Positions 8,248 through 63,377 of a DNA stretch of 64,000 nucleotides are shown here, one piece after another. Both the position numbers and the translations under genes were made by a program. Within the stretch, counting starts at the first letter, position 1. Each line of letters opens with the position of its first letter. This DNA is from Terriglobia bacterium (GTDB taxonomy: Bacteria; Acidobacteriota; Terriglobia; Terriglobales; Acidobacteriaceae), in NCBI GenBank assembly GCA_032252755.1, contig JAVUPY010000032.1, positions 62,001 through 126,000 on the forward strand, read 5' to 3'. A model generated the notes under the pieces. That model had not been told where the DNA came from and did not search any database. It saw nothing but the letters and a program-made list of their open reading frames with translations.

Positions 8248-8375
8248 TTAGGTACTCCGTGACAATCGTTGAAGTGAGCGGTACGCGTGTTCCATTGAGA
8301 TATATCGCTTCACGACTCAATTATAGGTCAGCTGATCAAGACAAAACACCGCCTCGACAGCACAAAGAGGCATAT
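8248..8375. promoter_or_regulatory. Shared promoter region of the PAS-LuxR gene and nirK operon
   Basis: These 128 bp between divergent genes must contain both promoters. The inverted pair TTGAG (8295-8299) and CTCAA (8316-8320), spaced by 16 bp, is a possible regulator site. No convincing FNR/NNR box (TTGAT-N4-ATCAA) is visible. AAAGAGG at 8364-8370 is the nirK ribosome-binding site. Confidence 0.35.
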
Positions 8376-30887: not shown

Positions 30888-32840
30888 CTAAAAGTTGTTG
30901 GTCACCTTGGCGTACTTGGTCAAGGCAAGCAGCGGGAAATACTGGTAGTACAGCGTGTACTTCAGGTAGAACACGCGCGGGAAGCCCGTTCCCGTGTAGG
31001 GCCACTCGTACCAGGAACCATTCTCTTGCTGATGCTGCAATAAATACGCGATGCCGCGACTGAGTGAATCGCTGCGGGTGTCTCCCGCGGCAAGTAGGCC
31101 AAGTACGGCCCAGGCTGTCTGCGAACAAGTGCTCTGGCCGACGCCCTTCTGCGTCGAATCGTCGTAGGAGCCGCAACTCTCGCCCCAGCCGCCGTCGGCA
31201 TTCTGAACCATGCGGATCCACTCGGCCGCTTGCTGAACCATGGGCTCGTGGTTGTCGATGCCGATGGCATCGAGGCCGCGGAGCACGCACATTGTTCCGT
31301 AAAGATAGTTGACGCCCCAGCGTCCGAACCAACTACCGTCAGGCTCCTGCTCGGAACGAATGAACTTGAGAGCGCGCTGCACGGGCTTGTCTTTCAAGGT
31401 AAAGCCGTTCGTCGCGAGACACTCGAGAACGCGGCCGGTGATGTCGACGCTCGGTGGATCGAGCATGGCATTGTGATCGGCGAATGGAACGTACTGAAAG
31501 ACCATGCGCGTGTTGTCTTTGTCGAACGAGGCCCAGCCGCCGTTCTTGCACTGCATGGCGAGCACCCACTTGAGAGCGCGCTGGACGGACTCTGACTGGA
31601 AACGCTCTTCCGAGGTGTCGACGTGGCTGAGGCCGAGCATGACCATGGCGCTGTCGTCGACGTCGGGATAGAACTCGTTGTTGAACTCGAAGTACCAGCC
31701 GCCCGGTTCCACATTCCGGACCTTCACGGACCAATCGCCCTTCGTCCGGATCTGTTTTTTCAGCATCCATTCGGCGGCATTGACGAGACGAGGGTCCCGA
31801 CGGTTATCGCTGGACTCACCGAGGGCGAACATGGCGTAGGCGGTGTCCCATACCGGCGACATGCAGGGCTGCATACGGAACGTGTCTTCTTCCTCGATGC
31901 CGAGCTTCTCGAATTCGTCGAGTGCGCGGATAAACTGCGGATCGTCCATGGAGTAGCCGAGGCAGCGCAGCGCAATGATGGAGTTCAGGATCGCCGGGTA
32001 GATGGCCCCGAGACCATCGGACATCTCGAAGCGCTCGAGCATCCACTCCTCCGCGGACTTCAGGGCGATGCTGCGCAGGGGGCGGACATGCACACGCTCG
32101 AACCAGTGGGCGATGAGATCGATAACAAGGAACGTGTTTCGCCAACTGAGGATCTTGTCTTTGTTCCACTTCAGCTTGAGCGAGGTATGATGGCGACCTT
32201 CGGGAAACAACTCGTCGATTGCCATGTGATCCGGAATCTTCTTGAACGGCTTCTTGGCGTAGCAGATCGAGAGCGGAATCAGGATGGCGCGCGACCACGA
32301 GGAGATTTCGTAGATGTTGAACCAGAACCAGTTCGGGAACAGGACGATCTCCGGCGGAATCGCGGGAACTGCATCGTAGTCGTACTGGCCGAGAGCGCAG
32401 AGATAGAGCTTCGTGAAGGTATTAACTGCCGGGACGCCGCCCTGGCTGAGAATCCACTGGCGAGACTTGGTGAGCGCGGGATGATCGGGAGCGTAGCCGG
32501 CCATCTTCAGCGCGAAGTAGGCCTTCACGGCAGCACTGATGTTCGAGGGGCCACCGTTGTAAATCGGCCAACCGCCGTCTTCATTTTGGAAACGAAGAAT
32601 GTGATTCGCACATTTGGCAAAACGCTTCTCGTCGACCGTCCCGAGAAGCATGTGCATGAAGATGTAGTCGGAAACGAGGGTGGTGTCGGCTTCCAGTTCA
32701 CCGAACCAGTAGCCTTCCGGATGCTGACGGGAAAAAAGGTGCTCGCGTGCGGCGGATATCGCGCTCGCCAGGCGAGACTTGATGCCGTCGATCTTTCCAA
32801 AGCGTATTTCTGCGACCTGCTTGGGGGAGGTCTCGTCCAT
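30888..32840 (-). CDS. shc: Squalene-hopene cyclase
   Basis: Membrane-associated class II terpene cyclase of 650 residues that turns squalene into hopene/hopanol. The catalytic acid motif DVDD is at residues 393-396. Several QW repeats are visible (for example QHPEGYWFGEL, QNEDGGWPIY, QCKNGGWASFD, QNADGGWGES). It heads the hopanoid genes on the minus strand, 81 bp after ispH, so isoprenoid supply and cyclisation may be cotranscribed. Confidence 0.97.
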   Translation of the reverse strand: MDETSPKQVAEIRFGKIDGIKSRLASAISAAREHLFSRQHPEGYWFGELEADTTLVSDYIFMHMLLGTVDEKRFAKCANHILRFQNEDGGWPIYNGGPSNISAAVKAYFALKMAGYAPDHPALTKSRQWILSQGGVPAVNTFTKLYLCALGQYDYDAVPAIPPEIVLFPNWFWFNIYEISSWSRAILIPLSICYAKKPFKKIPDHMAIDELFPEGRHHTSLKLKWNKDKILSWRNTFLVIDLIAHWFERVHVRPLRSIALKSAEEWMLERFEMSDGLGAIYPAILNSIIALRCLGYSMDDPQFIRALDEFEKLGIEEEDTFRMQPCMSPVWDTAYAMFALGESSDNRRDPRLVNAAEWMLKKQIRTKGDWSVKVRNVEPGGWYFEFNNEFYPDVDDSAMVMLGLSHVDTSEERFQSESVQRALKWVLAMQCKNGGWASFDKDNTRMVFQYVPFADHNAMLDPPSVDITGRVLECLATNGFTLKDKPVQRALKFIRSEQEPDGSWFGRWGVNYLYGTMCVLRGLDAIGIDNHEPMVQQAAEWIRMVQNADGGWGESCGSYDDSTQKGVGQSTCSQTAWAVLGLLAAGDTRSDSLSRGIAYLLQHQQENGSWYEWPYTGTGFPRVFYLKYTLYYQYFPLLALTKYAKVTNNF

Positions 32841-46925: not shown

Positions 46926-49850
46926 ATGGCTACCGACCTAGTGGCACCCGACTTGCAGAAAACAGAGCGGGAGAATTCCGTCTCGTCGAGGCGAAGTTCT
47001 CGCCAGGCGCCTAACGGTCCCATGACCAAGGATCTGCAAATCCGGTTCGCGGCCATCCTCCTCGGAATCCTCACCGTCACCGCGGTAGTCTTCGCCTGGA
47101 TCAATTACGAAAAAGAAACCCAGTGGGAATCGCCCGTCGATGGCGTGTGGTGGGTAGAGCACGATGGCCGCGTAATGGCACAGCGCGTCGACCCCGCCGG
47201 TCCGGGCGACAAGGCAGGAATTAAGGTCGGAGACCAACTGGTCGCTATCAACGGCGCACAGGTTCATCGAACTGCCGATGCGGTTCGGCAGATGTACCGC
47301 ACTGGTGTCTGGAAGCAGGCGACGTACTCGGTCGTGCGTGATGGCATTCGCGTTGATATTCAAGGCGTCCTGCTGGCTCCGGCCGACCGCTCGTTCAATC
47401 TTGGCCTGCGAATCATCGCGCTGATTTATCTCGGCATCGGACTGTATGTCCTCCTCAGGCGCTGGACTGCGCCGAAGTCGACGCACTTCTACCTGTTCTG
47501 CCTGGTTTCATTCATCTTCTACTCGTTCAAATACACGGGGAAGCTGAACCAGTTTGACCTTAGTATCTACTGGGGCAATGTCGTTGCGTGGCTGTTGCAG
47601 CCGGCGCTGTTCGTGCATTTCGCGCTGACCTTCCCTGAAAAGAAGGTGTCCCTGGCGCGAAGAAATTGGCTGGCGTGGCTGATTTACATACCGGGCGCGC
47701 TACTCCTGGCGATGCACTTCTTCTTCGTGCAAATGACACCGCCGAGCGAACTGGTCCGCTGGAACCTCGACCGCATCCAGATGGTTTACCTCACGGGGTA
47801 TTACATTTGGGCCGCCGTGGTGCTGTTCCAAAGCTATCGCAATTCGCGCACGCCGCTGATGCGCCAGCAGATGAAGTGGGTGACGCGCGGCACGGTCCTT
47901 TCAGTCGCGCCCTTCACGCTCTTCTATGTCATTCCGTACCTGATGGGCGCATCACCGTCCTTCGCGATGAAGTTCTCGGTGCTGTCGCTGGTTTTCGTGC
48001 CGCTGACTTTCGGCTACGCGATCTTCCGCTACCGGTTGATGGATGTGGACCTGATCTTCAAGCGGGGCATGGCCTATACGCTGGCAGCGGCAACGATTGC
48101 AGGAATCTACTTCGCGGCCGTCGGCATGACAGCCGAGTTGTTCCACAAGAATTTCCCGAGCATGGGCCCGTCGGGATTGATCGCCGCGATCGTGGTGACG
48201 GCGCTGCTCTTCGATCCATTCAAAAACTACATCACCGACCGGCTCGACAAGATCTTCTACCGCAAGCGTTACGATTTCCGTAAAACGCTGCTGGAATTTG
48301 GCCGCGATTTGAACTCCGAAACGGATCTCGACCGGTTGCTGTCGATGGTCATTGACCGCCTGTCCCGCACCCTGGAAATCGACCGCATCGCGATCTTTAC
48401 GGCGACGGATAATGAGTTCGGGGACAGCTTCGTGCTTGCGAAGTCGTTCGGCATCGCGCAAACAACGGCGCTCGACCTGAGCTTCCTCGCCGATCGCCCT
48501 GAATACCAGTCCGGGCACCTGTTCTTCGACAACACCCACCAGGCGGTTCGGGAAACCGAGAGCGCGCAGCAGACGATCCAGAAGCTCGACCTGAATTACT
48601 ACATTCCCTGCACGGTGATGAACAAGACGATTGCCGTGCTCGGCATGGGCAAGACGAGCGAAGGCGACTTCCTGTCAAGCGAAGACGTCGAGTTGCTCGA
48701 AACGTTGGCCGGATACATCGGGATCGCCATTCAGAATGCTCGGCTGTACGATTCACTCGCGACCAAGGTGCAGCAGTACGAACGCCTGAAAGAGTTCAAC
48801 GAGAACATCGTCGAATCGATCAACGTTGGTATCTTCACGCTCGATCTCGACGACCGTATCGAATCCTGGAACGCGCAGATGGAAGTGATGTATGCCCTGC
48901 CGCGCGCCGAAGCCATCCGCCGGCCGATCAGCGAAGTTCTCCCGGCAAGCTTCTGCGAGGAGTTCTACCGCGTCCGGCAGAATGCGGGCATCCACAATCT
49001 TTACAAGTTCCGCCTGGGCACCACGGCGGGCGATACGCGCACCTGCAATATCGCGATCGCCCCACTCGTCACCCGCGACTTCAGCGCTGTGGGCCGCGTG
49101 GTGATCGTAGACGATATCACCGAGCGCATGGATCTCGAGGCGCAACTGGCGCAGTCCGACAAGATGTCGTCGATCGGTCTGCTGGCCGCCGGCGTCGCGC
49201 ACGAGGTCAACACACCGCTGGCCGTCATCTCTTCGTACGCGCAGATGCTCGCCAAGCAGTTGCAGGGCGACGAGAGACGCTCTGCCCTGCTGGACAAGAT
49301 CACGCGGCAGACCTTCCGTGCGTCGGAGATCGTTAACAATCTGCTGAACTTCTCTCGCACCAGCGGCACCGAGTTCAAGCCGGTGGACCTGAATAAGATC
49401 ATTCACGACACGCTGGCGCTGCTGGAACATCAGTTCAAAACCGCGGGGATCAAGGTACAGGGGGACTTAACAACCGGCTTGCCGCCGATCCAGGGCAACG
49501 CCGGGAAGCTGCAACAGGTCTTCCTGAACCTGTTCCTGAACGCGAAAGATGCGATGCCCAAAGGGGGCACTCTCAGCGTTGCGACGACGAATGGTCGCGC
49601 CGTGCACGTCACCGTAGGCGATACCGGCGAAGGCATCGCGGCGGAACACATTCACCGGATCTACGATCCGTTCTTCACGACCAAGAACCGGCCGAAGCAG
49701 GGCAACAGCGGCGGCACCGGACTTGGGCTCTCGGTTACCTACGGCATCATCCAGGAGCATGCCGGGAAGATTCGCGTTGAGAGCAAGCCTGGCGAAGGCA
49801 CGCGGTTCTTCATGGAATTCCCAATGATTCGAAAGGCGGTCAATGTCTGA
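46926..49850 (+). CDS. Multidomain sensor histidine kinase (PDZ, 7TM, GAF, PAS)
   Basis: 974 residues. After a first helix (about 38-60) comes a PDZ-like domain (about 75-150; DPAGPGDKAGIKVGDQLVAI). Seven or so helices follow (about 155-440). A GAF domain (about 455-605), a PAS domain (about 620-735), HisKA with His759 (AAGVAHEVNTPLAV) and HATPase (NLFLNAKDAM; GGTGLGLSVTYG) complete it. It overlaps the NtrC-type regulator by 8 bp, so the two form a two-component system. An alternative start at ATG 47022 would place a sigma-54-like promoter (46942-46957) just upstream. Confidence 0.92.
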   Translation: MATDLVAPDLQKTERENSVSSRRSSRQAPNGPMTKDLQIRFAAILLGILTVTAVVFAWINYEKETQWESPVDGVWWVEHDGRVMAQRVDPAGPGDKAGIKVGDQLVAINGAQVHRTADAVRQMYRTGVWKQATYSVVRDGIRVDIQGVLLAPADRSFNLGLRIIALIYLGIGLYVLLRRWTAPKSTHFYLFCLVSFIFYSFKYTGKLNQFDLSIYWGNVVAWLLQPALFVHFALTFPEKKVSLARRNWLAWLIYIPGALLLAMHFFFVQMTPPSELVRWNLDRIQMVYLTGYYIWAAVVLFQSYRNSRTPLMRQQMKWVTRGTVLSVAPFTLFYVIPYLMGASPSFAMKFSVLSLVFVPLTFGYAIFRYRLMDVDLIFKRGMAYTLAAATIAGIYFAAVGMTAELFHKNFPSMGPSGLIAAIVVTALLFDPFKNYITDRLDKIFYRKRYDFRKTLLEFGRDLNSETDLDRLLSMVIDRLSRTLEIDRIAIFTATDNEFGDSFVLAKSFGIAQTTALDLSFLADRPEYQSGHLFFDNTHQAVRETESAQQTIQKLDLNYYIPCTVMNKTIAVLGMGKTSEGDFLSSEDVELLETLAGYIGIAIQNARLYDSLATKVQQYERLKEFNENIVESINVGIFTLDLDDRIESWNAQMEVMYALPRAEAIRRPISEVLPASFCEEFYRVRQNAGIHNLYKFRLGTTAGDTRTCNIAIAPLVTRDFSAVGRVVIVDDITERMDLEAQLAQSDKMSSIGLLAAGVAHEVNTPLAVISSYAQMLAKQLQGDERRSALLDKITRQTFRASEIVNNLLNFSRTSGTEFKPVDLNKIIHDTLALLEHQFKTAGIKVQGDLTTGLPPIQGNAGKLQQVFLNLFLNAKDAMPKGGTLSVATTNGRAVHVTVGDTGEGIAAEHIHRIYDPFFTTKNRPKQGNSGGTGLGLSVTYGIIQEHAGKIRVESKPGEGTRFFMEFPMIRKAVNV
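46942..46957 (+). promoter_or_regulatory. Candidate sigma-54 promoter (-24/-12)
   Basis: TGGCACCCGACTTGCA matches the TGGCAC-N5-TTGCA pattern with GG and GC exactly 10 bp apart. It overlaps codons near the start of the kinase gene as annotated. It is upstream of an alternative ATG at 47022. Confidence 0.4.
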
Positions 49851-51291
49851 CGTACTGGTTTCCCGCCCTCCCAACGCCCAGAACGGCGCAACGGCGGGGA
49901 CGATCCTCATCATCGATGACGAGTTTGAAATCCGCGAGTCGCTGCAAACGTTGCTCGAAATGGAAGGCTACGCCGTGGAGGTCGCGGAGGACGGCGAACA
50001 GGGCCTGAACCAGATCGCCACGCGTCCCTTCGATCTCGTGCTGCTCGACTTCGCGCTTCCCGACCGGAACGGCATCGAAATTTTGCGCGACATTCGCGAG
50101 CGCGCGCCCGAACTCGCCGTCATCATGATCACCGCGTATGGCACGGTGGAAAACGCCGTTAACGCCATGCAGGGCGGTGCAGTCAACTTCATCCAGAAAC
50201 CGTGGCAAAACGAAAAGCTGCTGGCCGACGTAGCCGCTGCGATCGGTCGTCGGCGCGCGGAAGAAGAAAATATCCAGCTCAAGCGCATTCTCAACAAGCG
50301 CTACCGCTTTGAGAACATCGTCGGCAAGAGCGAGCCGATGCAGAAGATTTACGACCTGGTGCAACAGGTCGCGCCGAGCCGGAGCACCATCCTGCTGAAC
50401 GGCGAGAGCGGCACCGGCAAGGAACTGATCGCGAAGGCGATTCACATCAACTCGCCGCGCAAGGATCGCCCGTTCATTCCTGTCAATACCGGGTCCATGC
50501 CGGCCGACCTGCTGGAATCGACGCTTTTCGGCCACGTAAAGGGCGCTTTCACCAGCGCGGTGGCAAGCAAAAAGGGCCTGTTCGAAGTCGCGGATAAGGG
50601 CACGCTTTTCCTCGACGAAATCGGAACGATGTCGATGGAGACACAGGCGAAGATCCTGCGCGTCTTGCAGGACCGCAAATTCATGCACCTGGGCGGCATT
50701 CACGAAGTGCAGGTCGACGTCCGAATCGTCGCCGCGACGAACGTCGATCTCCGCCAGGCTGTGAAGGACGGCAAGTTCCGCGAGGACCTCTTCTATCGCC
50801 TGAACGTTATCACCATCGATCTGCCGCCGCTGCGCAATCGCAAGGAAGACATCCCGCTGCTGGTCGACCACTTCGTAAAACGCTTCTGCGAAGAGAATCA
50901 AAAGCCGCTACTCACGGTGACCTCCGCAGTACTGCACGCGCTGATGGATTACAACTTCCCCGGCAACGTTCGCGAGTTGGAAAACGTGATGGAGCGCGCG
51001 GTGGTGCTGGCCTCCGGAACGATGGTCACGCCGGACCTGCTGCCGGACAGCATTGTGGGCCGAAGTTCCACACTGGACCTGATCGGCTCGCGGCCTGACG
51101 CTTCCCTGTTTGACATCATGGAAGACGCCGAGCGCCGCATCATAAGCGAGATGCTGGAAAAATGTGCGTGGAACCAGACTGAAGCCGCCAAGCGCTTCCG
51201 TATCCCGCTCTCCACGCTGAACCAGAAGATCAAGCGTCTCGGTATAGAACTCGATAAGCGCAACGGCAACGGCCGCGAAGCTACCGCGTAA
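49843..51291 (+). CDS. NtrC-family response regulator (AAA+, Fis-type HTH)
   Basis: 482 residues: receiver domain (about 19-135; phospho-acceptor Asp69, Lys119), AAA+ domain (about 155-390; Walker A GESGTGK at 187-193; Walker B GTLFLDEIG) and a Fis-type HTH (TEAAKRFRIPLSTLNQKIKR). It would activate sigma-54 promoters when phosphorylated by the overlapping kinase. The sigma-54 contact loop reads GAFTSA (234-239), with Ser238 in place of the usual Gly, which may weaken or alter sigma-54 contact. Confidence 0.93.
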   Translation: MSDVLVSRPPNAQNGATAGTILIIDDEFEIRESLQTLLEMEGYAVEVAEDGEQGLNQIATRPFDLVLLDFALPDRNGIEILRDIRERAPELAVIMITAYGTVENAVNAMQGGAVNFIQKPWQNEKLLADVAAAIGRRRAEEENIQLKRILNKRYRFENIVGKSEPMQKIYDLVQQVAPSRSTILLNGESGTGKELIAKAIHINSPRKDRPFIPVNTGSMPADLLESTLFGHVKGAFTSAVASKKGLFEVADKGTLFLDEIGTMSMETQAKILRVLQDRKFMHLGGIHEVQVDVRIVAATNVDLRQAVKDGKFREDLFYRLNVITIDLPPLRNRKEDIPLLVDHFVKRFCEENQKPLLTVTSAVLHALMDYNFPGNVRELENVMERAVVLASGTMVTPDLLPDSIVGRSSTLDLIGSRPDASLFDIMEDAERRIISEMLEKCAWNQTEAAKRFRIPLSTLNQKIKRLGIELDKRNGNGREATA

Positions 51292-54687: not shown

Positions 54688-55671
54688 TCAGGCTTTGCCT
54701 GCCGCCAAAATCGCCTTCTTCGCGAACACCCGCACCATCTCCCGCCGATACTCTGGTGTGAGCATGGATGTGGTAAGCGGTTTTGCGGTCTGCGCCGCCA
54801 GTTCGGCGACAACCTGTGCGTAGTGCTCGCTCACGGCTCTCCCCACCAGAGCATGTTCAACGCTGGGCACCAGAAGAGGCGCGGGATTCACTCCGGTGAT
54901 CGCGACGCGCACCTGCTCGACGACGCCGCGATTGACCTTCATCGCAACCGCCACTCCGGCGAGCGGATAATCAATTGACCCACGAAGACGAAGCTTCTGG
55001 TAGTTCCCCTTCCAACCCGAGGACGCTTCCGGCAGCAGGACACGCGTCAGCATTTCGTAGCGCTGCATTCGTAGGTGAGCGATGCCGTCATTGCCATAGA
55101 ACTGCGCGATAGGGATGCGGCGGAATCCGTTCGGGCCAGCGACCTCAACTTCGGCATTGAGGCAGAGTAGCGCCGGCGCGGTGTCGCCGCTGAAGACCGC
55201 CCAGCAGACATCGCTCCCCGGCGCGACATGACACTGGTTCCCGTCCTTCTTCAGGCAGAAGCCGCAGCTCTTACGCCATTGCAGCGACTGGTTGTACCAG
55301 AGACAACGCGTATCAAGGCAGAGATTGCCTCCGAGTGTCCCCATATTGCGCAGCACCGGCGACGCGACTGTCACCGCGGCGTGGTGCAGCACGGAGTAAT
55401 TGCGCTGCAGAAAACCAGAATCTTCGATGTTGCTGATCGTCGTCAGCGCCCCGATCTCCACGCCTGCTCCCGGCATCGCGCGAATGCCGTGCATCGACTC
55501 GATCCCACGTATGTCCATCACGTACTTCGGCGTGAACAGCCGCTGTTTCATCGACGGGATCAGGTCGGTTCCCCCGGCTATGATCCGCACATCGGGCGCA
55601 TGCTGCTCAAGAAGGCGGACCGATTCCTGCACCGTTCGCGGACGCAGCAACCGGAACTCGGGGAGGCTCAT
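54688..55671 (-). CDS. hcrB: 4-hydroxybenzoyl-CoA reductase beta subunit-like, FAD plus [4Fe-4S]
   Basis: 327 residues of the molybdenum-hydroxylase FAD subunit fold ([25 protein letters not shown]). A loop not present in ordinary xanthine-dehydrogenase FAD subunits carries Cys123, Cys139, Cys147 and Cys156. From memory, the [4Fe-4S] ligands of the Thauera HcrB subunit are spaced the same way (122, 138, 146, 155). This extra cluster sets 4-hydroxybenzoyl-CoA reductases apart within the family and supports this label. The start overlaps the hcrA stop (ATGA). Confidence 0.82.
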
Positions 55672-58157
55672 CGGCTGCCCTCCGGTTTCGCGCCGTGTTC
55701 GCGGAACTGCGCGGGTGCGGCGGGATCGACACCCTCCGTCAGGTCGAGACGCTTCATTCCCTTTTGCGCACGCAGGGCGGCCAGTACACGCTCCGGCGTG
55801 AACGGAGCTTCATGCAGGCGCACGCCAACGGCGTCGAAAATGGCGTTGCTGATCACAGGAATTGTCGCGGCCAGCGAGCCCTCGCCGGCCTCCTTTGCAC
55901 CGAACGGACCTTCGGGTTCGATACTCTCGACAATGATTGGCTCGACCAGGGGCGATTCGATGGATGCTGGCGTCGCGTAATTAAGCAGGCCGGGATTCAT
56001 CGCCCGCCCGGCATTCCACGCGATCTCTTCCTGCAGCGCCTGGCCCAACCCCATCGAGACCGAACCGATGATCTGCCCTTCGACGCCGAGTGGGTTCAGC
56101 GCGCGACCGCAATCGTGCGCCGCCCAGATCTTATGTACCGTCACCTGCCCGGTCTCTTCGTCTACAGACACTTCAGCCACCTGCGCGGCATAAGAGTACG
56201 CTGGCGCAGGACCTACTCCCGCGCCCTTGAACAGCGCGCCGCGCGAATCCGACGGCGGAGAGTACCACCCGACGCCCCGTAAGGCACCAAACTTCGCGAT
56301 CGTGAGTTCGACCGCCTCGTCGAAGGTCATCCACTGTTTCTTCTTCTCCTCCCCGAAGATCTTCTGAAGAGAACCCCGAGGAGCACCGGATCGGGCGGCA
56401 ACACCGTGTACACGCTCCAGTCTCTCTAGTTCGATACTTCGCTCCATCCCCCGTCTGTAAATCGTCTCGTCTTTTATAACGACGTTCTCAGATTCGCAAC
56501 CGAACGAGCCGGCCGCCCCCGCGAGCATCTGGTTGCGCACGCTCTCTGCTGCATGCAGCGCGGCGTTTCCGGTCATGAGAGTTACACGACTCGAATAAGA
56601 ACCCAGATCGACTGGCGTTAGGTCCGTGTCGCCAGAGATGATTTTGACGCGGTCTAGTTTGCAGCCAAGTGCCTCGGCGACGATCTGGGCGATTACCGTG
56701 TCGGAGCCCTGCCCGATTTCCGGGGCGCCCGTGAACACGACCACCGAACCATCGCGCTCGAGTTTTACTTCGACCGTCGACTGTGGCGTATCGGAGCGTA
56801 GAATCGGATTCGCCGCGCCGCTCACATAATGACTACACGCCAATCCAAGGCCACGCCCGCGACCGAGTTTTCCCTTGCGGAGCTTCCACTGAGAACGCTC
56901 GACCACTTTCTCGATGCACTCGGGAAGGCCGTAACTTTGCACGCGCAGACCGTTCGCCGTGACCGTGGGCGCTTTCAGTAGATTTCGCGTGCGGATTACC
57001 GCGGGATCGATTTTCAGCTTCGCCGCGAGCTCGTCGAGGGCACTCTCGAACGCAAAGCGCACGTTGACCGTGCCGTGACCGCGCATGGCGCCACACGCGG
57101 GCTTGTTCGTGAGCACGCGGTAGCCGTCGAAGCGCACATGCTGCAGATCGTAAATCGCATGCAGCAGCGCCCCGGAATAGAGGACCGAGACAGGTCCGTA
57201 GGAGCAATATGCGCCGCCATCCTGGATGACTTTCGCGGAGACTCCGGTGATGCGGCCATCGTTTTTTGAGCCGATCTTCAAATCCACAATCGTTCTGGGT
57301 CGCCCACGGTGTGCCCAGAAGACTTCTTCGCGCGTGTAGGTGATCTTGACGGGAGCCATTGCCTTTCGCGCCGCAACGGCTGCAATGATCTCCAGCGGAT
57401 TAATCTCGCTCTTGCCGCCGAACCCGCCGCCGACCAGCGGCTTGATCACGCGTATCTGTGAAATCGGCAGATCGAGCACCAGGGAAAGCTTGTGCTGCAG
57501 GTAGAACGGCACCTGCGTCGAGGACCAGACGGTGAGCCGCCACGATTCGCCAGTCTGAGGATTGAGTTCAAACGCGGCCAGAGTGGAGTGGGGCTCCATC
57601 GCAGCGTGCGTCACTTCGTTCGCGATGTACCGAGCCTCGTGGACTAAATCGGCGGACGCCAGCACCGTGTCCGGATCGCCAAAAACGTGGTGATATTCCT
57701 TCTCGATATTGCGCGGCTTGTCGGCGTGAATGAGTTCGCCCGTCGCCTTCATCGACTGCTCGGGATCGAAGTAGGCCGGTAGCGGTTGATACTGAACATC
57801 AATCAGTTCCAGCGCGCGCTCTGCGGTCGCCTCATCGATCGCTATGACGCACGCGACGTTGTCGCCGATGTATCGAACTTTGTCGACCGCCAGCGCGGTC
57901 TCGTCATGACCGATCGGAAGAATGCCGTACGCCGTCGGACAGTCGGCGCCGGTGAGCACCGCCGCGACGCCGGCGAGTGCTTGCGCTTTCGAAGCGTCGA
58001 TGTGGAGAATTCGTGCGTGGGCGTGTGGGGAATGCAATATCTTACCGATGAGCATGCCGGGAAGCGAAATGTCGTCGGTGTACTGTCCGGCGCCTATCGT
58101 CTTTCGCGTTGCATCGACGAATGACACGGGCTTACCTACGACAGAGTAGTCGCTCAT
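55668..58157 (-). CDS. hcrA: 4-hydroxybenzoyl-CoA reductase alpha subunit-like (molybdopterin)
   Basis: 829 residues, a molybdenum hydroxylase large subunit. Seen are the N-terminal hammerhead domain (about 15-115), the GGGFGGK motif (about 230), GAMRGHG and the catalytic Glu756 in PFGAKEAGEGS. The enzyme would remove the para-hydroxyl of 4-hydroxybenzoyl-CoA to give benzoyl-CoA, with its two electron-transfer subunits encoded on both sides. The assignment to Hcr rests on the beta-subunit cluster and the neighbouring aromatic acyl-CoA genes. A plain xanthine or aldehyde dehydrogenase is the alternative. Confidence 0.82.
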   Translation of the reverse strand: MSDYSVVGKPVSFVDATRKTIGAGQYTDDISLPGMLIGKILHSPHAHARILHIDASKAQALAGVAAVLTGADCPTAYGILPIGHDETALAVDKVRYIGDNVACVIAIDEATAERALELIDVQYQPLPAYFDPEQSMKATGELIHADKPRNIEKEYHHVFGDPDTVLASADLVHEARYIANEVTHAAMEPHSTLAAFELNPQTGESWRLTVWSSTQVPFYLQHKLSLVLDLPISQIRVIKPLVGGGFGGKSEINPLEIIAAVAARKAMAPVKITYTREEVFWAHRGRPRTIVDLKIGSKNDGRITGVSAKVIQDGGAYCSYGPVSVLYSGALLHAIYDLQHVRFDGYRVLTNKPACGAMRGHGTVNVRFAFESALDELAAKLKIDPAVIRTRNLLKAPTVTANGLRVQSYGLPECIEKVVERSQWKLRKGKLGRGRGLGLACSHYVSGAANPILRSDTPQSTVEVKLERDGSVVVFTGAPEIGQGSDTVIAQIVAEALGCKLDRVKIISGDTDLTPVDLGSYSSRVTLMTGNAALHAAESVRNQMLAGAAGSFGCESENVVIKDETIYRRGMERSIELERLERVHGVAARSGAPRGSLQKIFGEEKKKQWMTFDEAVELTIAKFGALRGVGWYSPPSDSRGALFKGAGVGPAPAYSYAAQVAEVSVDEETGQVTVHKIWAAHDCGRALNPLGVEGQIIGSVSMGLGQALQEEIAWNAGRAMNPGLLNYATPASIESPLVEPIIVESIEPEGPFGAKEAGEGSLAATIPVISNAIFDAVGVRLHEAPFTPERVLAALRAQKGMKRLDLTEGVDPAAPAQFREHGAKPEGSR

Positions 58158-58642
58158 TCGCCCACGGCCGCCCGTGCCTGCGACTTCAATGCGAGTTTCA
58201 CCGCGTCGTACATCTGGGTGTACCCGGTGCAGCGACAGAGATTGCCGCTGATGGCGCGCTTGATCTCTTCATCGCTTGGGTCAGGATTGTTCTCCAGAAG
58301 CGCCTTAATCGTCATCAGGAAGCCGGGCGTGCAGAAGCCGCACTGGGAGCCGCCGCTGGCACCCCAGGCGCGCTGGAGAGCGTTGAGGCGGCCATCGCCT
58401 GCGAGCGACTCGACGGTCATGATCTCGCTTCCCTGGCATGAGGCTGCCAGTAATGTGCACGAAAGCATGGGAACGCCGTCGATGAGAACCGCGCAGGCGC
58501 CGCAGGAAGAGTCGTCGCACGCCTGCTTGGAGCCGGTCAGGCCGAGGTCCCGCCGCAGCACATCGAGCAACAGCCGGTTGGGTTCGGCCGCCAACTGGTG
58601 CTCCCGTCCATTCACACGAAGAGTTATGAGTTCTTTGTTCAT
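58154..58642 (-). CDS. hcrC: 4-hydroxybenzoyl-CoA reductase gamma subunit-like, [2Fe-2S]x2
   Basis: 162 residues from ATG 58642. The plant-type cluster motif CDDSSCGAC ... C (about 44-66) and the second cluster CGFCTPG ... CRCTG (about 104-141) are complete. This is the usual electron-entry subunit of the molybdenum hydroxylases. The stop overlaps hcrA (ATGA), so hcrC-hcrA-hcrB are translationally coupled in that order. Confidence 0.88.
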   Translation of the reverse strand: MNKELITLRVNGREHQLAAEPNRLLLDVLRRDLGLTGSKQACDDSSCGACAVLIDGVPMLSCTLLAASCQGSEIMTVESLAGDGRLNALQRAWGASGGSQCGFCTPGFLMTIKALLENNPDPSDEEIKRAISGNLCRCTGYTQMYDAVKLALKSQARAAVGE

Positions 58643-58711
58643 GACGGATGCGGTGTAGCGGAATAGTCTATCGTGTTTCGCGAAGGTACAAACGACTTTT
58701 GCGAGCAGCAA

Positions 58712-59032
58712 TCAGTACAGCGGCACCTTGGGATCGATTTCGCGCGACCAGCGGTCGATGCCGCCGCGTAAGGATTGAACCTGTTCGAATCCCTGCTGGC
58801 GCAGCCAGGCGGTCACGTTCAGCGAGCGCATGCCATGGTGACAGTAGACGACGATGTGCTGCTCGGGATCGAGTTCCTGCACCCGCGCCGGAATTTCGCC
58901 CATGGGAATGTGCACCGAGGGTTCAATCGCCGCTGTCGCGCGTTCCACCGGTTCGCGAACATCAAGAACAATGAGGTCGGCTTTGTTGTCGAGTTTCTGT
59001 TTCAGATCTTGTGTGGTGAGTTCCCAATCCAT
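58712..59032 (-). CDS. Single-domain rhodanese
   Basis: 106 residues with the rhodanese loop Cys64-H-H-G-M-R-S (VYCHHGMRS) and the opening DLIVLDVREPVE. It can carry a persulfide. It sits 69 bp upstream of the hcr genes in the same direction. Molybdenum hydroxylases need a sulfido ligand on Mo, so a sulfur-delivery role is a reasonable but unproven idea. Confidence 0.88.
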   Translation of the reverse strand: MDWELTTQDLKQKLDNKADLIVLDVREPVERATAAIEPSVHIPMGEIPARVQELDPEQHIVVYCHHGMRSLNVTAWLRQQGFEQVQSLRGGIDRWSREIDPKVPLY

Positions 59033-59067
59033 AAGCTACTCAGCTTCTCAACTACTCAGCGAAACAG

Positions 59068-59280
59068 TCAATACGTTCGGCGCATTGCAGACAGCCGCTG
59101 CGGCGTGACCTGCATATCGGCGGTTTCTATCACGACCGTGTCCATGCTACAGCCCGGGCATACTGCCGTCTCGCCTTCATTCCAGAAGTCCTGGATCTCC
59201 TTGAAGAGGAAAATGCGGCCACAGTTATAGCAGCCGCAAACTGCGTCAGGATTCGTGCGTTCGTAGTGGCCGTCACTCAT
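59068..59280 (-). CDS. Small Cys-rich protein in the aromatic operon
   Basis: 70 residues from ATG 59280. It holds CGCYNC (about 15-20) and CPGC (about 42-45), a probable zinc ribbon, and an aromatic acidic centre. Start overlaps the previous stop (ATGA). Function unknown. Confidence 0.65.
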   Translation of the reverse strand: MSDGHYERTNPDAVCGCYNCGRIFLFKEIQDFWNEGETAVCPGCSMDTVVIETADMQVTPQRLSAMRRTY

Positions 59281-59585
59281 AAGAACCAATAACGAAGAAT
59301 AATTCTGTTCAGAACTAAGTTTCTCCCGAGGACAGTCCGAATTGCCTGTTTGTATTGTTCTCTTGTAGAGGGGGTGATCATGGCCATTTGCAGCAACTCC
59401 GCCATCTTCCTCTCGAAGTCTTTCCCTTCCCATGGACTGGGCGAGTAAACAGACGGTCCCGAGTTGTAGTGTTCAGAGCCGAAGAGCCGGTTCTTGTCAC
59501 TATCGTAGAGGCTAGTCCCGTTTTCGCGGTAGGCCATGTAGTCCATCGCGGAAATCAGAGTCTCTTTTGCTTCGGTAACCGTCAC
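59277..59585 (-). CDS. Small hypothetical protein in the aromatic operon
   Basis: 102 residues from GTG 59585, whose GTGA overlaps the stop of the crotonase gene; GGTGGGG lies just upstream. The stop overlaps the next start as ATGA. The protein is soluble with helical stretches (AKETLISAMDYMAYREN; FERKMAELLQMAMI). No known family. The coupled overlaps on both sides support it being a real gene. Confidence 0.55.
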   Translation of the reverse strand: MTVTEAKETLISAMDYMAYRENGTSLYDSDKNRLFGSEHYNSGPSVYSPSPWEGKDFERKMAELLQMAMITPSTREQYKQAIRTVLGRNLVLNRIILRYWFL

Positions 59586-60349
59586 TTCCCCACCCACTTA
59601 GCCCGTCGCTTCTCCACAAACGCCCGGATTCCCTCTTTCGCGTCTTCGGTCTTCATCAGTTCGTCGACGTAGATTTGCTCGGAGCGGGCGAGACCCTTGT
59701 CGAAGTGTATGGCGTTCCAGGCGTAGAAGGCCTTTTTCGCGATGCCGAGTGCGGCCGGGCTGAACTGCTGGACGCGCGCGACGGTTTCGGTCATCGGTAT
59801 CTCAGGGTCGCCGGCAACGCCATTCACGAGGCCCATGTCGTGCGCCTCCTGGGCCGTCACCATGCGAGCGGTCAGGAGCAGTTCTGCGGCGCGCTTCTGG
59901 CCGATAACCGCACTCAGGGCCACCATCGCGACGGGTGCGTAGGATGCCAGCTTGATCTCCGGGAAGCCGAAAACCGCATCCGGACAGCAATAGATCAGAT
60001 CGCACATCAGCGCGAGTTCCGCGCCGCCACCCAGGCAATGTCGCCGGACCGTGGCTATCGTCAGCTTCCGAGAGTTGACAATCGCGCCGATGACTTCGTG
60101 AAATTTGCGCAGGATCGGCTCGAAACCGTCCGGATCATGTGAGCCTATATCGACTCCCGCGGAAAACGCGCGTTCGGAACCGGCAAATACGACCGCAACG
60201 ATTCCCGGTCGCCGCTCGATATCGGCAAGCGCGAGTGACAGGTCATCGATCATCTCAGCATCGATGATGTTCAGGGGCGGATTGTTCAGCGTGATTCGCG
60301 CGACCGTGGGATGAAGTTCAACTTTCAGACGACGGTATTGGTCGGACAT
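59582..60349 (-). CDS. Crotonase-family hydratase, cyclohexa-1,5-dienecarbonyl-CoA hydratase-like
   Basis: 255 residues. The crotonase fold retains both catalytic Glu (GGGAELALMCDLIYCCPDA and FGFPEIKL). Several segments recall the Thauera dienoyl-CoA hydratase (Dch): NPPLNIIDAEMI, the FSAGVDIGSHDPD segment and the C-terminal YVDELMKTEDAKEGIRAF. Dch hydrates the product of benzoyl-CoA reductase in the anaerobic pathway. The label dch is held back because crotonases are easily misassigned. Confidence 0.75.
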   Translation of the reverse strand: MSDQYRRLKVELHPTVARITLNNPPLNIIDAEMIDDLSLALADIERRPGIVAVVFAGSERAFSAGVDIGSHDPDGFEPILRKFHEVIGAIVNSRKLTIATVRRHCLGGGAELALMCDLIYCCPDAVFGFPEIKLASYAPVAMVALSAVIGQKRAAELLLTARMVTAQEAHDMGLVNGVAGDPEIPMTETVARVQQFSPAALGIAKKAFYAWNAIHFDKGLARSEQIYVDELMKTEDAKEGIRAFVEKRRAKWVGK

Positions 60350-60512
60350 GTTGGTCTCGGCTCCAGCACGTCAATAAAAGCTATTGTAAGGCAGGAGAGC
60401 AAGTTCTCAGTTCGGTTCTCAGTTCAGTTAGACCCCCGAGTGTTCGAGACAATCAAAGAACCAGAAAACTCTGGCCCAAGTGGGAATGAGAACCGAGAAC
60501 TGGGAATTGCTT
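60350..60512. repeat. GTTCTCAGTTC-type direct and inverted repeats
   Basis: AGTTCTCAGTTCGGTTCTCAG lies near 60403 and the opposite-sense GAGAACCGAGAACTGGGAA near 60486. They fill the 163-bp gap between boxB and the crotonase gene and could fold into a long hairpin. Confidence 0.55.
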
Positions 60513-61688
60513 CTAGATGTTGATCGCGCTCTTCCGCACCTCGCCGATCGACGCCAGCGGATCGCGTGCACCCTCCTTCGGGCTGATCCACTTCGGCTCA
60601 TTCCGAATGACGTCGAGCAGCCGCGCCCTGTCCTGCTCGTTCGGCAGCCACTCGCCCAGGCGCTGTTCGTATTCGCGATCGCCGACGGGTTCGCCTGTCT
60701 TCGGGTGAAACTTCTGATCTTTCCACCGGCCGATCTCGCGATTGAACTTAATGTCCGGCGCGTAGAGTGGCTCTGTTCCCGGCTTCAGGTAGTTGTTCAA
60801 CCGGTCGACCAGCCCCGCGACCTCCTGGTGATAGAGCGCCCGGTTGTAGTCGTTCAAATCGTCGAGATCCGCCGCCGTATCGTTCTTCGGCTCGTCGTAG
60901 CGCCCTTTCACACCCCAGACGTACGCCCAGTGTGCGCTCGACGAGTGATCCGTACCGAACAGGTCGTGTGAGCACGAGATCCACTTGTTGAGATATTTCT
61001 GCAGCAGGTCGGCGGGTATGATGCCCGCCTTCACGATGCGCGCGAGGCCGTCGTTGCCCGTACCCATGTGGAATGCCTCTTCGCGCAGCATGTAGCTCAT
61101 CGAGCGGCCCAGCGGCGCGAAGGCCGAGTACTTGAGCATTTGCAACTGGAACTTGCCGTCGCGGTCGACGAAGTCGGTGTAGGTGAAGAAGTCCAGCCAG
61201 TTATCGACGTCGACGTTGAAGGCGCCAAGCAGTCGCTGATTTTCAAACGCGCGACGTTCAAGCAGTTTCTGCGCTTCGACTTTTCCGGATGACCCGAAGA
61301 ATTCGACGAGGACCGCTGACATCTGCCAGCCGTGGCGCATCTCCTCGATCATCACGCGCGTGAGCGCCTGGCGGTCGTAGTCGGTCGGAGCGGTTTCGAA
61401 CAGGAAGCGCTGCTGCTCGACCGACGCGAACTCGGTGTCGCCCTGGTAGACGATCATGTTGAGTAGCGCGTCGCGGATGTTCTGCGTCGGAATCTGACGC
61501 ACGTTCTCCCACTTCTTGCGGCCCTTGAACGAGCCGAACTGGATCTCGTCGGTTTCGATGGCGCCGAAGAGCGTGTCGAACTTGAAGTTCTGGATCTCGC
61601 CGGTATTGACGCCGATTTCCTTGCGCCAATCTTCGAACATTCCGACCCAATCGTTGAAGCTGCCGATCTTGAAAACTTTTCCGGGCAT
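60513..61688 (-). CDS. boxB: Benzoyl-CoA 2,3-epoxidase subunit-like diiron protein
   Basis: 391 residues from ATG 61688 (GAGAGG upstream). Segments recall BoxB from memory: VYQGDTEFASVEQQRFL, KLLERRAFENQRLLGAFN, DRDGKFQLQML and EWLPNEQDRARLLD. Diiron ligands fit Glu86 or Glu91, the ExxH pairs Glu116/His119 (IEEMRH) and Glu204/His207 (REEAFH). It is shorter than the roughly 470 residues of classical BoxB, mostly through missing parts near the ends. It would epoxidise benzoyl-CoA or a related acyl-CoA with O2. No BoxA or BoxC gene is in the window. Confidence 0.8.
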   Translation of the reverse strand: MPGKVFKIGSFNDWVGMFEDWRKEIGVNTGEIQNFKFDTLFGAIETDEIQFGSFKGRKKWENVRQIPTQNIRDALLNMIVYQGDTEFASVEQQRFLFETAPTDYDRQALTRVMIEEMRHGWQMSAVLVEFFGSSGKVEAQKLLERRAFENQRLLGAFNVDVDNWLDFFTYTDFVDRDGKFQLQMLKYSAFAPLGRSMSYMLREEAFHMGTGNDGLARIVKAGIIPADLLQKYLNKWISCSHDLFGTDHSSSAHWAYVWGVKGRYDEPKNDTAADLDDLNDYNRALYHQEVAGLVDRLNNYLKPGTEPLYAPDIKFNREIGRWKDQKFHPKTGEPVGDREYEQRLGEWLPNEQDRARLLDVIRNEPKWISPKEGARDPLASIGEVRKSAINI

Positions 61689-61808
61689 AAGAACCTCTCT
61701 TGGGTGCCGGGTTCCGGGTTCCAAGTACCGGGTCACTTTCTTTTTTATCCAGAGTGCCAAGGCTAAACCGACTCTACCTCGGTACCCGGCGCCCGGTACC
61801 TGGTACCC
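61689..61808. repeat. GGTACC/GGTTCC-type repeats between boxB and the hydratase gene
   Basis: GGGTTCCGGGTTCC and, facing it, CGGTACCCGGCGCCCGGTACC occur within the 120-bp gap, a set of direct and inverted units. A possible stem or dispersed repeat; boxB still has its own ribosome-binding site after it. Confidence 0.55.
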
Positions 61809-62618
61809 CTACTTCGACTTAAACTCCGCCGGCCGTTTCTCCACGTACGCGTTCAGACCTTCTTTCGCGTCCTGCGAGTTGAAGAGCAGCGCCTGTAGTT
61901 CGCGTTCGATGGCGAGCGCGCTTTCCATTGGAAGCTCCCAGCCGGTCTGCACTGAACGTTTGATATGGCCAACGGCTTTCGCGGCCTTGTTCGGCGGGCA
62001 GAACTGGCGCGCGTAGTCCATGATGTTTACCATAAAATTTTCGCGCTCGAAGATGTCGTTGACGATGCCCATCTCCTTCGCCTCTTCGAACGAGAACGTG
62101 TTGCCGGTGACCATCAGTTCGATTGCCTTCGATTTGCCGACGAGGCGCGAAAGCCTCTGCGTTCCGCCAGTACCGGGCAGTACACCGAGATTGACTTCCG
62201 GAAGGCCGATTTTGCCGGCATCTTTGCGCGCGATACGAATATCGGCGGCCATGGCAATCTCGAGCCCACCGCCAACCGTGTGCCCGTTCAGCGCGGCGAT
62301 GACCAGCTTCGGCGTGTGCTCCAGGCGCAGCAGCGTCTCGTTCGCGTGCAGGCAGAAGTAGTACTTGAAGGTGGGATCGACCGAGGCGAGCATTTTGATG
62401 TTCGCGCCGGCGGAGAAGAACTTGTCGCCCGCACCGGTGAGCACGATTACATGAACATCGTTATCCATTCGCGCCCTAAGAATGGCATCGTCGAGTTGCC
62501 GGTTCATCTCGTAGGTATAGGTGTTCGCCGGGGGATCGTTCATCTCGATCACCGCGACGCCGTCGGCGACGCGATAGTTAATGAGCGTCTGGGTCTCGGT
62601 TGCGGAAGTGGTGGCCAT
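61809..62618 (-). CDS. Enoyl-CoA hydratase/isomerase
   Basis: 269 residues from ATG 62618 (AAGGAG upstream). The crotonase motif GGGLEIAMAADIRIA and the second catalytic region GLPEVNLGVLPGTGGTQRL hold both catalytic Glu, so hydratase activity is likely. It has the usual length. As the second gene after the TetR regulator it would take part in side-chain or ring-product breakdown. Confidence 0.88.
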   Translation of the reverse strand: MATTSATETQTLINYRVADGVAVIEMNDPPANTYTYEMNRQLDDAILRARMDNDVHVIVLTGAGDKFFSAGANIKMLASVDPTFKYYFCLHANETLLRLEHTPKLVIAALNGHTVGGGLEIAMAADIRIARKDAGKIGLPEVNLGVLPGTGGTQRLSRLVGKSKAIELMVTGNTFSFEEAKEMGIVNDIFERENFMVNIMDYARQFCPPNKAAKAVGHIKRSVQTGWELPMESALAIERELQALLFNSQDAKEGLNAYVEKRPAEFKSK

Positions 62619-62678
62619 GGTCACTCCTTTTCAAATCTTTAAGATGTCAGTAAAACAGAATTTCTTTGTGCCTTACCC

Positions 62679-63377
62679 CTACCTGGCACCGGTAGGGTTG
62701 GGTCTCTTCTCAGCAAATACGCCCTTCAAGAACATGTCCGCGATCTGCTCAGCCAGGTCATCACTGCCCGGATCGACCTGGGGGTTGTACCAGGTATAGA
62801 TCCAGTTCATCATGCCGAACAGGCTCATGACAGCGACTCGGCGCTCACTCCGGCGCGGGGGGCCATCGTTGCCGAACCTGTGCTTTCGCAGTTCGTCCAG
62901 CAGGCCGGAACACACGCGATAGTACTCACGCTTGATCGCTTGAATTTCTTTGCCATAACCGTTCTTCAGTGTGTTGTCTTCGTGCGCCAAAACCTTCATG
63001 GCCGTCATGTTCGCGACGAAGTACTCAATGTGATTGCGAATCATGGTGCGCACGGCATCTTCGGCATCACTGGTCGAGGCCAGTCGTTCGCGCAGTCTGT
63101 GCAGAACCTCGGTAAACGTGTGTCGCTGAATCAGGTAGAGCAGTTTGTCCTTCGATTCGAAGTAGTAGTACAGGCCGGCGAGGGACATTCCTGTGCGCCG
63201 CGACAGGTCGCGCATAGAGGCTCCCTCATAACCTTTTTCGTAGAAAACCTCGGCCCCGGCAGCGAGAATTTCGCCCAATCGCCTGTCGAAACGCGAATCG
63301 GCAGACGAGCTCCGCCGTGCCCCGTTTTCATTCGCACGCGAAGCCGCTCTCGTCGGTTTCACTGCCCTGAGTGCCAT
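62679..63377 (-). CDS. TetR-family regulator of the aromatic operon
   Basis: 232 residues. A basic N-terminal tail (about 1-30) precedes the HTH (EKGYEGASMRDLSRRTGMS and LYYYFESKDKL, about 48-80). A larger ligand domain ends with a Trp/Tyr-rich NWIYTWYNP motif common in acyl-CoA-sensing TetR proteins. It heads the minus-strand operon, 60 bp before the hydratase. A palindrome (63427-63440) lies 50 bp upstream of its start, over the predicted transcription start, so it likely represses itself and the whole operon until an aromatic acyl-CoA binds. Confidence 0.9.
   Translation of the reverse strand: MALRAVKPTRAASRANENGARRSSSADSRFDRRLGEILAAGAEVFYEKGYEGASMRDLSRRTGMSLAGLYYYFESKDKLLYLIQRHTFTEVLHRLRERLASTSDAEDAVRTMIRNHIEYFVANMTAMKVLAHEDNTLKNGYGKEIQAIKREYYRVCSGLLDELRKHRFGNDGPPRRSERRVAVMSLFGMMNWIYTWYNPQVDPGSDDLAEQIADMFLKGVFAEKRPNPTGAR

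Follow-up and report, generated by a model that had tools for sequence, protein, structure and literature searches.

A conserved acidobacterial operon that probably joins 4-hydroxybenzoyl-CoA reductase-type dehydroxylation to a compact BoxB-like diiron protein

The subject of this study is an operon on the minus strand of a 64,000-nucleotide stretch of DNA (the window; contig JAVUPY010000032.1, assembly GCA_032252755.1) from a Terriglobia bacterium of the Acidobacteriaceae, in which the genes of a molybdenum enzyme of the 4-hydroxybenzoyl-coenzyme A (CoA) reductase (Hcr) type accompany a gene for a compact diiron protein resembling BoxB, the epoxidase of the aerobic box pathway. Sequence comparison makes it probable that these belong to one aromatic acyl-CoA operon, in which dehydroxylation by Hcr would be followed by epoxidation by the compact protein. 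Such a funnel, from 4-hydroxybenzoyl-CoA through benzoyl-CoA to an epoxide, had been suggested in a preliminary description of the window; it is the best fit because the identity of Hcr is strong, the BoxB active site is mostly kept and Hcr tracks BoxB across genomes, while the part given there to a cyclohexadienoyl-CoA hydratase (Dch) is not supported.

The operon would handle aromatic acids as CoA thioesters. HcrCAB would remove the para-hydroxyl of 4-hydroxybenzoyl-CoA to yield benzoyl-CoA, which the compact diiron protein would epoxidise at C2-C3 with O2 and two electrons. The epoxide product would be hydrolysed and the semialdehyde oxidised by an aldehyde dehydrogenase (ALDH), encoded in the operon of many relatives and unlinked in the window's genome, and the resulting acyl-CoA would enter beta-oxidation-like steps, where the two crotonases of the operon most likely serve. 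The substrate and every reaction of this scheme are our reading of what was observed, namely which genes are present, their order and conservation, the fold and active-site residues of the diiron protein, its alternation with true BoxB and the co-occurrence with Hcr.

Conservation of the operon

The window's genome (G000; G numbers denote genomes and L numbers fetched loci) is a 5.39-Mb draft, 99.98% complete with 3.03% contamination. Ten minus-strand open reading frames (ORFs) run from 63377 down to 54688 in the window's ORF list, all of them where the preliminary description had placed them, and profile scans bore out the families it had named: TetR, enoyl-CoA hydratase, BoxB-like, crotonase, rhodanese and three Hcr-type subunits. 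The BoxB-like protein has 335 relatives in the species collection; the loci of the best 80 were compared, and gene-order counts were taken from the 48 of these in which boxB is preceded by 3.5 kb or more and followed by 9 kb or more. Across all 48, the order tetR-ech-(ALDH)-boxB-(gctB)-second crotonase-(gctA)-rhodanese-hcrC-hcrA-hcrB-amidohydrolase holds with no exception of order or strand, and the arrangement is therefore not a matter of chance. The first crotonase gene, ech, is present in 48, tetR in 45, the second crotonase in 43, the amidohydrolase in 39, the rhodanese in 37, each of the three hcr genes in 32, ALDH in 22, and gctA and gctB in 13. The ten genes thus described stand as a run, but its supposed end at 54688 does not: an Amidohydro_2 gene (PF04909; 53176-54015, minus strand) is the last gene of the conserved run in the 39 relatives just mentioned.

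The ALDH and CoA-transferase genes came to light when the stretches between the other genes were read in the loci of two relatives. The operon of L023 carries both. The window's operon has neither, and the nearest ALDH of G000 is unlinked and 56% identical. Glutaconate CoA-transferase (1POI) is the best solved relative of the CoA-transferase, and an ENG motif, whose Glu is presumably the catalytic residue, is found in 23 of 23 gctB; on these two grounds a role for gctAB as a hydrolase or decarboxylase like IpdAB or AibAB is less likely. Scanning for promoters and terminators returned two promoter-like sites against a shuffle mean of 2.8, which is no excess.

A compact protein with the BoxB fold

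The diiron protein (60513-61691, minus strand) has 392 residues when read from Met24 of an ORF that opens at 61760; judging from close homologs, this Met, at window position 61691, is probably the start. At about 390 residues it is shorter than the full-length BoxB in our tree (471-475 residues), and Pfam names it solely by the general family PaaA_PaaC. The AlphaFold model of the window protein (mean predicted local distance difference test score 86.2) superimposes on BoxB (3q1g) with a Z of 41.5 and a deviation of 2.1 Å across 361 residues; SSO1313 (Z 24.4) and PaaA (Z 21.4) come next among the structural matches.

The part of PMC5489048 available to us names the iron ligands of BoxB and, for the positioning of the benzoyl group, the residues Gln116, Thr119, Ser123, Phe193, Phe203, Phe206 and Thr210. 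All six diiron ligands are kept in the window protein and in each of the 114 compact rows of our alignment, some of which are the same gene, the window's own included, drawn twice from overlapping loci. Gln116, Thr119, Ser123 and Phe193 occur in all 114 rows and Phe203 in 113, so that five of the seven positioning residues are identical in the window protein. PaaA, the phenylacetyl-CoA epoxidase, has a related diiron fold and shares Ile or Val at the Thr210 position, whereas the compact proteins follow BoxB at Thr119, Ser123 and Phe203; the sole PaaA-like row examined differs from BoxB at all four of these positions. Unlike PaaA systems, the operon has no second PaaA/PaaC-type gene among its ten scanned proteins. 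By fold and active site the protein is nearer to BoxB than to PaaA, and the outcome that would have gone against the preliminary description, a diiron protein outside BoxB, did not arise. In the tree, full-length BoxB stands apart on a long branch, with the root and the monophyly of the compact group not settled.

The compact proteins form a distinct group that keeps most of the BoxB active site. A plasmid search returned 14 records, all below 60% identity and with a maximum of 37.6% among the matches listed, several of them annotated as boxB. Other Acidobacteriota (L184, L185, L186) carry a third BoxB-like group of 418-441 residues and 31-32% identity, in which the six iron ligands are complete and Phe203 is replaced by Asn.

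A molybdenum enzyme of the Hcr type

Profile and pairwise scores were used to place the molybdenum enzyme. Its molybdenum subunit, HcrA (55668-58157, minus strand), reaches 966.3 bits with TIGR03194, 28 bits below the cut-off of 994.55, the next model giving 553.2; among solved structures 1RM6_A gives 738 bits and the next 294.9. Orthologs that are 67-70% alike exceed the same cut-off in L023 (1041.7 bits) and L118 (998.9 bits), and a more distant HcrA in L116 (826.0 bits) lies under it. HcrB (54688-55671, minus strand), the flavin adenine dinucleotide subunit, gives 341.2 bits of 404.55 with TIGR03195. It carries the insert of Hcr, whose four cysteines all align with those of 1RM6_B and would bind a [4Fe-4S] cluster; the cysteine pattern recurs in 47 of 47 hcrB ORFs collected. 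The [2Fe-2S] subunit HcrC (58154-58711, minus strand; by eye the true start is probably near 58642) is not specifically matched, its 183.6 bits of 257.8 with TIGR03193 being tied with 182.5 for a glyceraldehyde dehydrogenase model.

There is strong sequence-based support for an enzyme of the 4-hydroxybenzoyl-CoA reductase type, and the molybdenum subunit scores far above xanthine dehydrogenase models, the opposite of which would have gone against the preliminary description. Its resemblance to HcrABC of Thauera aromatica (1RM6) extends to the three subunits, the four insert cysteines and a clear best match for the alpha and beta subunits; it differs in that HcrA falls just under the curated cut-off, the gamma match is unspecific and the genes lie inside an oxygenase operon.

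Alternation with true BoxB and co-occurrence with Hcr

Compact BoxB, BoxA, BoxC and HcrA were searched for in 100 genomes, G000 and 99 relatives. Compact BoxB is present in 42 (in three of which, G024, G036 and G068, part of the gene is seen), full-length BoxB in eight, and both in none, and BoxC passes its cut-off in exactly the eight genomes with full-length BoxB. A phylum-wide set of 297 genomes has compact BoxB above 400 bits in 18 and likewise no genome with both kinds.

HcrA, at a threshold of our own choosing (E<=1e-150), was found in 36 of the 100 genomes, and 34 of these have a BoxB of one kind or the other, against 16 of the 64 others. Two HcrA genomes have no BoxB: in G059 (L137) a contig with ech and ALDH ends inside ALDH, just before the usual place of boxB, and in G065 the HcrA match is of 49%. 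Hcr and BoxB lie on separate contigs or more than 100 kb apart in G001, G030, G049 and G066, and the link is therefore not merely one of gene order.

To judge from gene content, nothing argues better for the compact protein doing the job of BoxB than an apparent natural swap. G053 and G023 (L133, L136), which belong to the window's family, have true BoxB-BoxC and no compact gene, and retain ech, gctB, the second crotonase, gctA, the rhodanese and hcrA, with hcrC also in G053. True box genes have hcr neighbours elsewhere too: in L118, hcrCAB 58-67% identical to the window's are divergent from true boxC-boxB within 2 kb, and in L116, hcrCA 45-49% identical follow true boxC-boxB on the same strand.

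The searches for PobA and BcrB covered 61 genomes, G000 included. PobA is over its cut-off in three of the 61, with none in G000 at E<=1e-60. Two of the three, G028 and G024, have compact BoxB and no Hcr ortholog, as if hydroxylation had replaced dehydroxylation; the BoxB of G024 is partial and its draft 75% complete, and two genomes are too few to judge. BcrB has no match in G000 and is over cut-off in one of the 61 genomes, with eight more below it; class II benzoyl-CoA reductase was not searched for.

The two crotonases

The product of ech (61809-62624, minus strand) is a single-domain crotonase (PF00378) in which both catalytic Glu positions are present by eye. It is the best match in G000 to the BoxC model, with 91.6 bits of 712.3 (the other match gives 39.2), and it shares with BoxC an FCxxxNE motif, found in 82 of the 84 ech that lie at boxB loci, eight of ten further ech and five of five BoxC. 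The motif is present in none of 76 second crotonases, 13 generic crotonases (hand-picked from the BoxC match list or the neighbours of fetched loci) and two other crotonases. In the tree, a branch with 98/100 support has ech and BoxC together on one side.

These resemblances raise the possibility, compatible with the preferred reading, that ech acts as a BoxC of one domain and opens the epoxide, the operon holding a shrunken BoxB-BoxC pair; the available part of PMC4498308, which puts the active centre in the N-terminal domain of BoxC only, would suit this. We regard it as possible though unlikely. The simple equation of ech with BoxC is weakened by the retention of ech, 78-80% alike, in the two swap genomes with true BoxC, and an ech-ALDH pair at 60% adjoins true boxB-boxC in L181. 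As far as the accessible text of PMC6449761 goes, the COG1024/COG447 genes of BoxR operons are assigned to a downstream 3-hydroxyacyl-CoA hydro-lyase step. Because of this assignment and the retention beside true BoxC, the role we favour for ech is that of a downstream hydratase, which it probably is. In L131, L132 and L134, from genomes with true BoxB, an ech homologue stands beside a small protein and a second crotonase; the small protein of L131 is SufT/PaaD-like (TIGR02945, 113.3 of 143.4 bits).

The second crotonase (59582-60349, minus strand) is best called a generic enoyl-CoA hydratase/isomerase, no model being over its cut-off. The preliminary description had likened it to Dch, and this we reject, for generic models match equally well: TIGR03189 gives 156.6 bits (cut-off 292.5), against 147.0 for a plain enoyl-CoA hydratase model, and with 18 members aligned the best E-values are tied (3.7e-51 for TIGR03189, 4.7e-51 for PRK07658).

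Regulators and candidate electron donors

In other families a gene of the BzdR/BoxR family adjoins compact boxB or lies at most two genes away (L108, L109, L110, L112), and genes of the same family are found likewise near true box genes (L114, L116, L117). Three were scanned with PRK08154 (cut-off 204) and gave 301.3 bits in L108, 295.9 in L116 and 269.3 in L112; the other four were grouped by BLAST. BzdR responds to benzoyl-CoA, according to the portion of PMC4985591 at hand.

Three genomes of other families have genes that are candidates for a replacement of BoxA. In L178 and L180, the genes directly after compact boxB encode a thioredoxin-like [2Fe-2S] ferredoxin (NuoE-like) and a NuoF-like flavoprotein of the Nuo51 type; in L170 such a NuoE/NuoF-like pair follows ech on the opposite strand, divergent from compact boxB. 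The NuoF-like proteins give 335.5-392.8 bits, below the NuoF cut-off of 558.65. A NuoE-like ferredoxin with no NuoF adjoins or lies near boxB in L108-L111 and L169. Directly after true boxC-boxB in L117 (9468-10721, plus strand) is a gene that by eye looks like an adrenodoxin-type ferredoxin reductase, another possible substitute for BoxA. BoxB-type enzymes of this phylum may use several reductases.

Points against the proposed pathway and other explanations

Several results weigh against Hcr dehydroxylation followed by compact-BoxB epoxidation. The window protein scores 239.2 bits with TIGR03225, less than half of the cut-off of 499.1, and is therefore called BoxB-like and not BoxB here. Phe206 is Tyr in 111 of the 114 compact rows, and every one of the 114 has Val or Ile in place of Thr210, like the Ile of the PaaA-like row. 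Sixteen of the 48 well-flanked operons have no hcr gene at all (15 of them also have no ALDH or gct, and one has ALDH), so that Hcr is optional there. The association of HcrA with BoxB among the 100 genomes (Fisher p 6e-12) is uncorrected for kinship, and under the threshold that we chose G081 and G096, with hcrA at 41-45% beside true box genes, count as lacking HcrA. BoxA over cut-off was found in none of the 100 genomes, the eight with full-length BoxB and G000 included. No BoxC over cut-off was found in G000, where ech is the best match, and a known BoxC passes the same model. Benzoate-CoA ligase was searched for in 41 genomes including G000 at E<=1e-80, and G000 was searched again with the limit at its default; none in G000 is over the cut-off of 375.25 (best 254.5), ligases outside the model being possible. 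The search of the genome that the preliminary description had proposed, made with models for BoxA, BoxC, benzoate-CoA ligase and BcrB, gave nothing over cut-off in G000.

An ordinary box pathway, in which BoxB has diverged, its partners are unlinked or too far changed for the models and nothing is mechanistically new, would also be compatible with the preferred reading, and we think it improbable. The BoxB fold and active site would suit it, as would the unlinked ALDH and the weak BoxA matches in 73 of the 100 genomes, G000 included (best there 64.9 bits). Such weak matches are, however, also found in 13 of 14 control genomes, the known BoxA of Mycetohabitans passes the BoxA model with 682.8 bits (cut-off 459.2) where none of the 100 genomes does, and BoxC over cut-off accompanies full-length BoxB only.

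Least probable is a separate box-like pathway in which some other aryl- or heteroaryl-CoA is epoxidised by the compact protein and is also the substrate of the Hcr-type enzyme, which would work for example as a hydroxylase: the score below the BoxB cut-off, the two exchanged active-site residues, the lack of BoxC and benzoate-CoA ligase over cut-off in G000 and the unusual extra genes (rhodanese, amidohydrolase, glutaconate-type CoA-transferase) speak for it, but the regulator of BoxR/BzdR type that other families have close to compact boxB, the alternation with true BoxB-BoxC, the hcr genes near true boxCB and the kept insert cysteines of Hcr speak against it.

The funnel through Hcr and compact BoxB admits a bolder version, which we put forward tentatively and with some doubt. 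In this the compact proteins would make up another class of benzoyl-CoA epoxidases, beside BoxB, that need neither BoxA nor BoxC, with a NuoE/NuoF-like donor in some families and single-domain crotonases opening the ring; with Hcr from the same operon they would form a reductive-then-oxidative pathway spread through soil Acidobacteriota.

Relation to known pathways and significance

To the aerobic box pathway (BoxA, BoxB, BoxC, BoxD) the operon is linked by the diiron epoxidase fold with most of its active site, by a crotonase partner, by ALDH in relatives and, in other families, by a regulator of BoxR/BzdR type encoded close to the epoxidase gene. It differs in an epoxidase about 80 residues shorter, a TetR regulator, Hcr in the same operon and a genome with no BoxA or BoxC over cut-off. 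The idea of a hybrid in which Hcr precedes the box pathway is already known and not new here, since there are two precedents. Aromatoleum aromaticum EbN1, in the section of PMC9765128 available, passes 3-(4-hydroxyphenyl)propanoate through 4-hydroxybenzoyl-CoA and benzoyl-CoA to the box pathway under oxic conditions, which is the funnel proposed here; the present case differs in that G000 has no BcrB match and the steps lie in one conserved operon. The excerpt of PMC4782131 at our disposal describes SAR324 bins with boxB and boxC, some of which also have 4-hydroxybenzoyl-CoA reductase. Among the papers listed in searches of the open-licence literature, none describes this operon. As far as we searched, four things are new: the group of compact BoxB proteins, the way in which they alternate with BoxB-BoxC, the presence of Hcr in one operon with them in Acidobacteriota, and the NuoE/NuoF-like proteins as a candidate donor.

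Few bacteria are as abundant in soil as the Acidobacteriota, and to our knowledge little has been established about how they handle lignin-derived aromatic acids. If the proposed pathway is true, a common route for benzoyl-CoA escapes marker searches that use the curated models of boxA, boxB and boxC. The compact enzyme would be a concrete case in which to ask whether benzoyl-CoA can be epoxidised with neither BoxA nor BoxC at hand, and an oxygen-using operon with a molybdenum reductive dehydroxylase would put to aerobic use a chemistry that is usually filed under anaerobic metabolism.

Other genes of the operon and of the window

The first gene of the run encodes the TetR-family regulator (62679-63377, minus strand; PF00440/PF17932). 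Two small proteins lie between the second crotonase and the rhodanese, one of 106 residues (59277-59597, minus strand; no family in profile scans) and one of about 70 residues that is rich in cysteine, with a CxCxxC...CxxC pattern (59068-59280, minus strand, start by eye; no Pfam family). Neither has a meaningful family match, as the preliminary description had it; the longer ORF of the second has only a weak match, in one of the 80 relatives (L099). The rhodanese (58712-59032, minus strand; PF00581) is a single-domain protein. A service to the molybdenum cofactor of Hcr was considered for it, and this reading is weakened because the rhodanese is present in 15 of the 16 well-flanked operons with no hcr. 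In the window, msrA (54144 to about 54614, start by eye) stands between hcrB and the Amidohydro_2 gene.

A few kb past the last gene of the operon and on the opposite strand (46926-51291, plus strand) are an AtoS-like sensor kinase of 974 residues and then an AtoC/NtrC-like response regulator, both under their cut-offs. Elsewhere the window encodes a squalene-hopene cyclase (30888-32840, minus strand; 766.5 bits, cut-off 431.1) and a homologue of the copper nitrite reductase NirK (8259-10277, plus strand; TIGR02376, 320.0 bits, above the cut-off of 296.3), whose ORF has 672 residues against 326 positions in the model.

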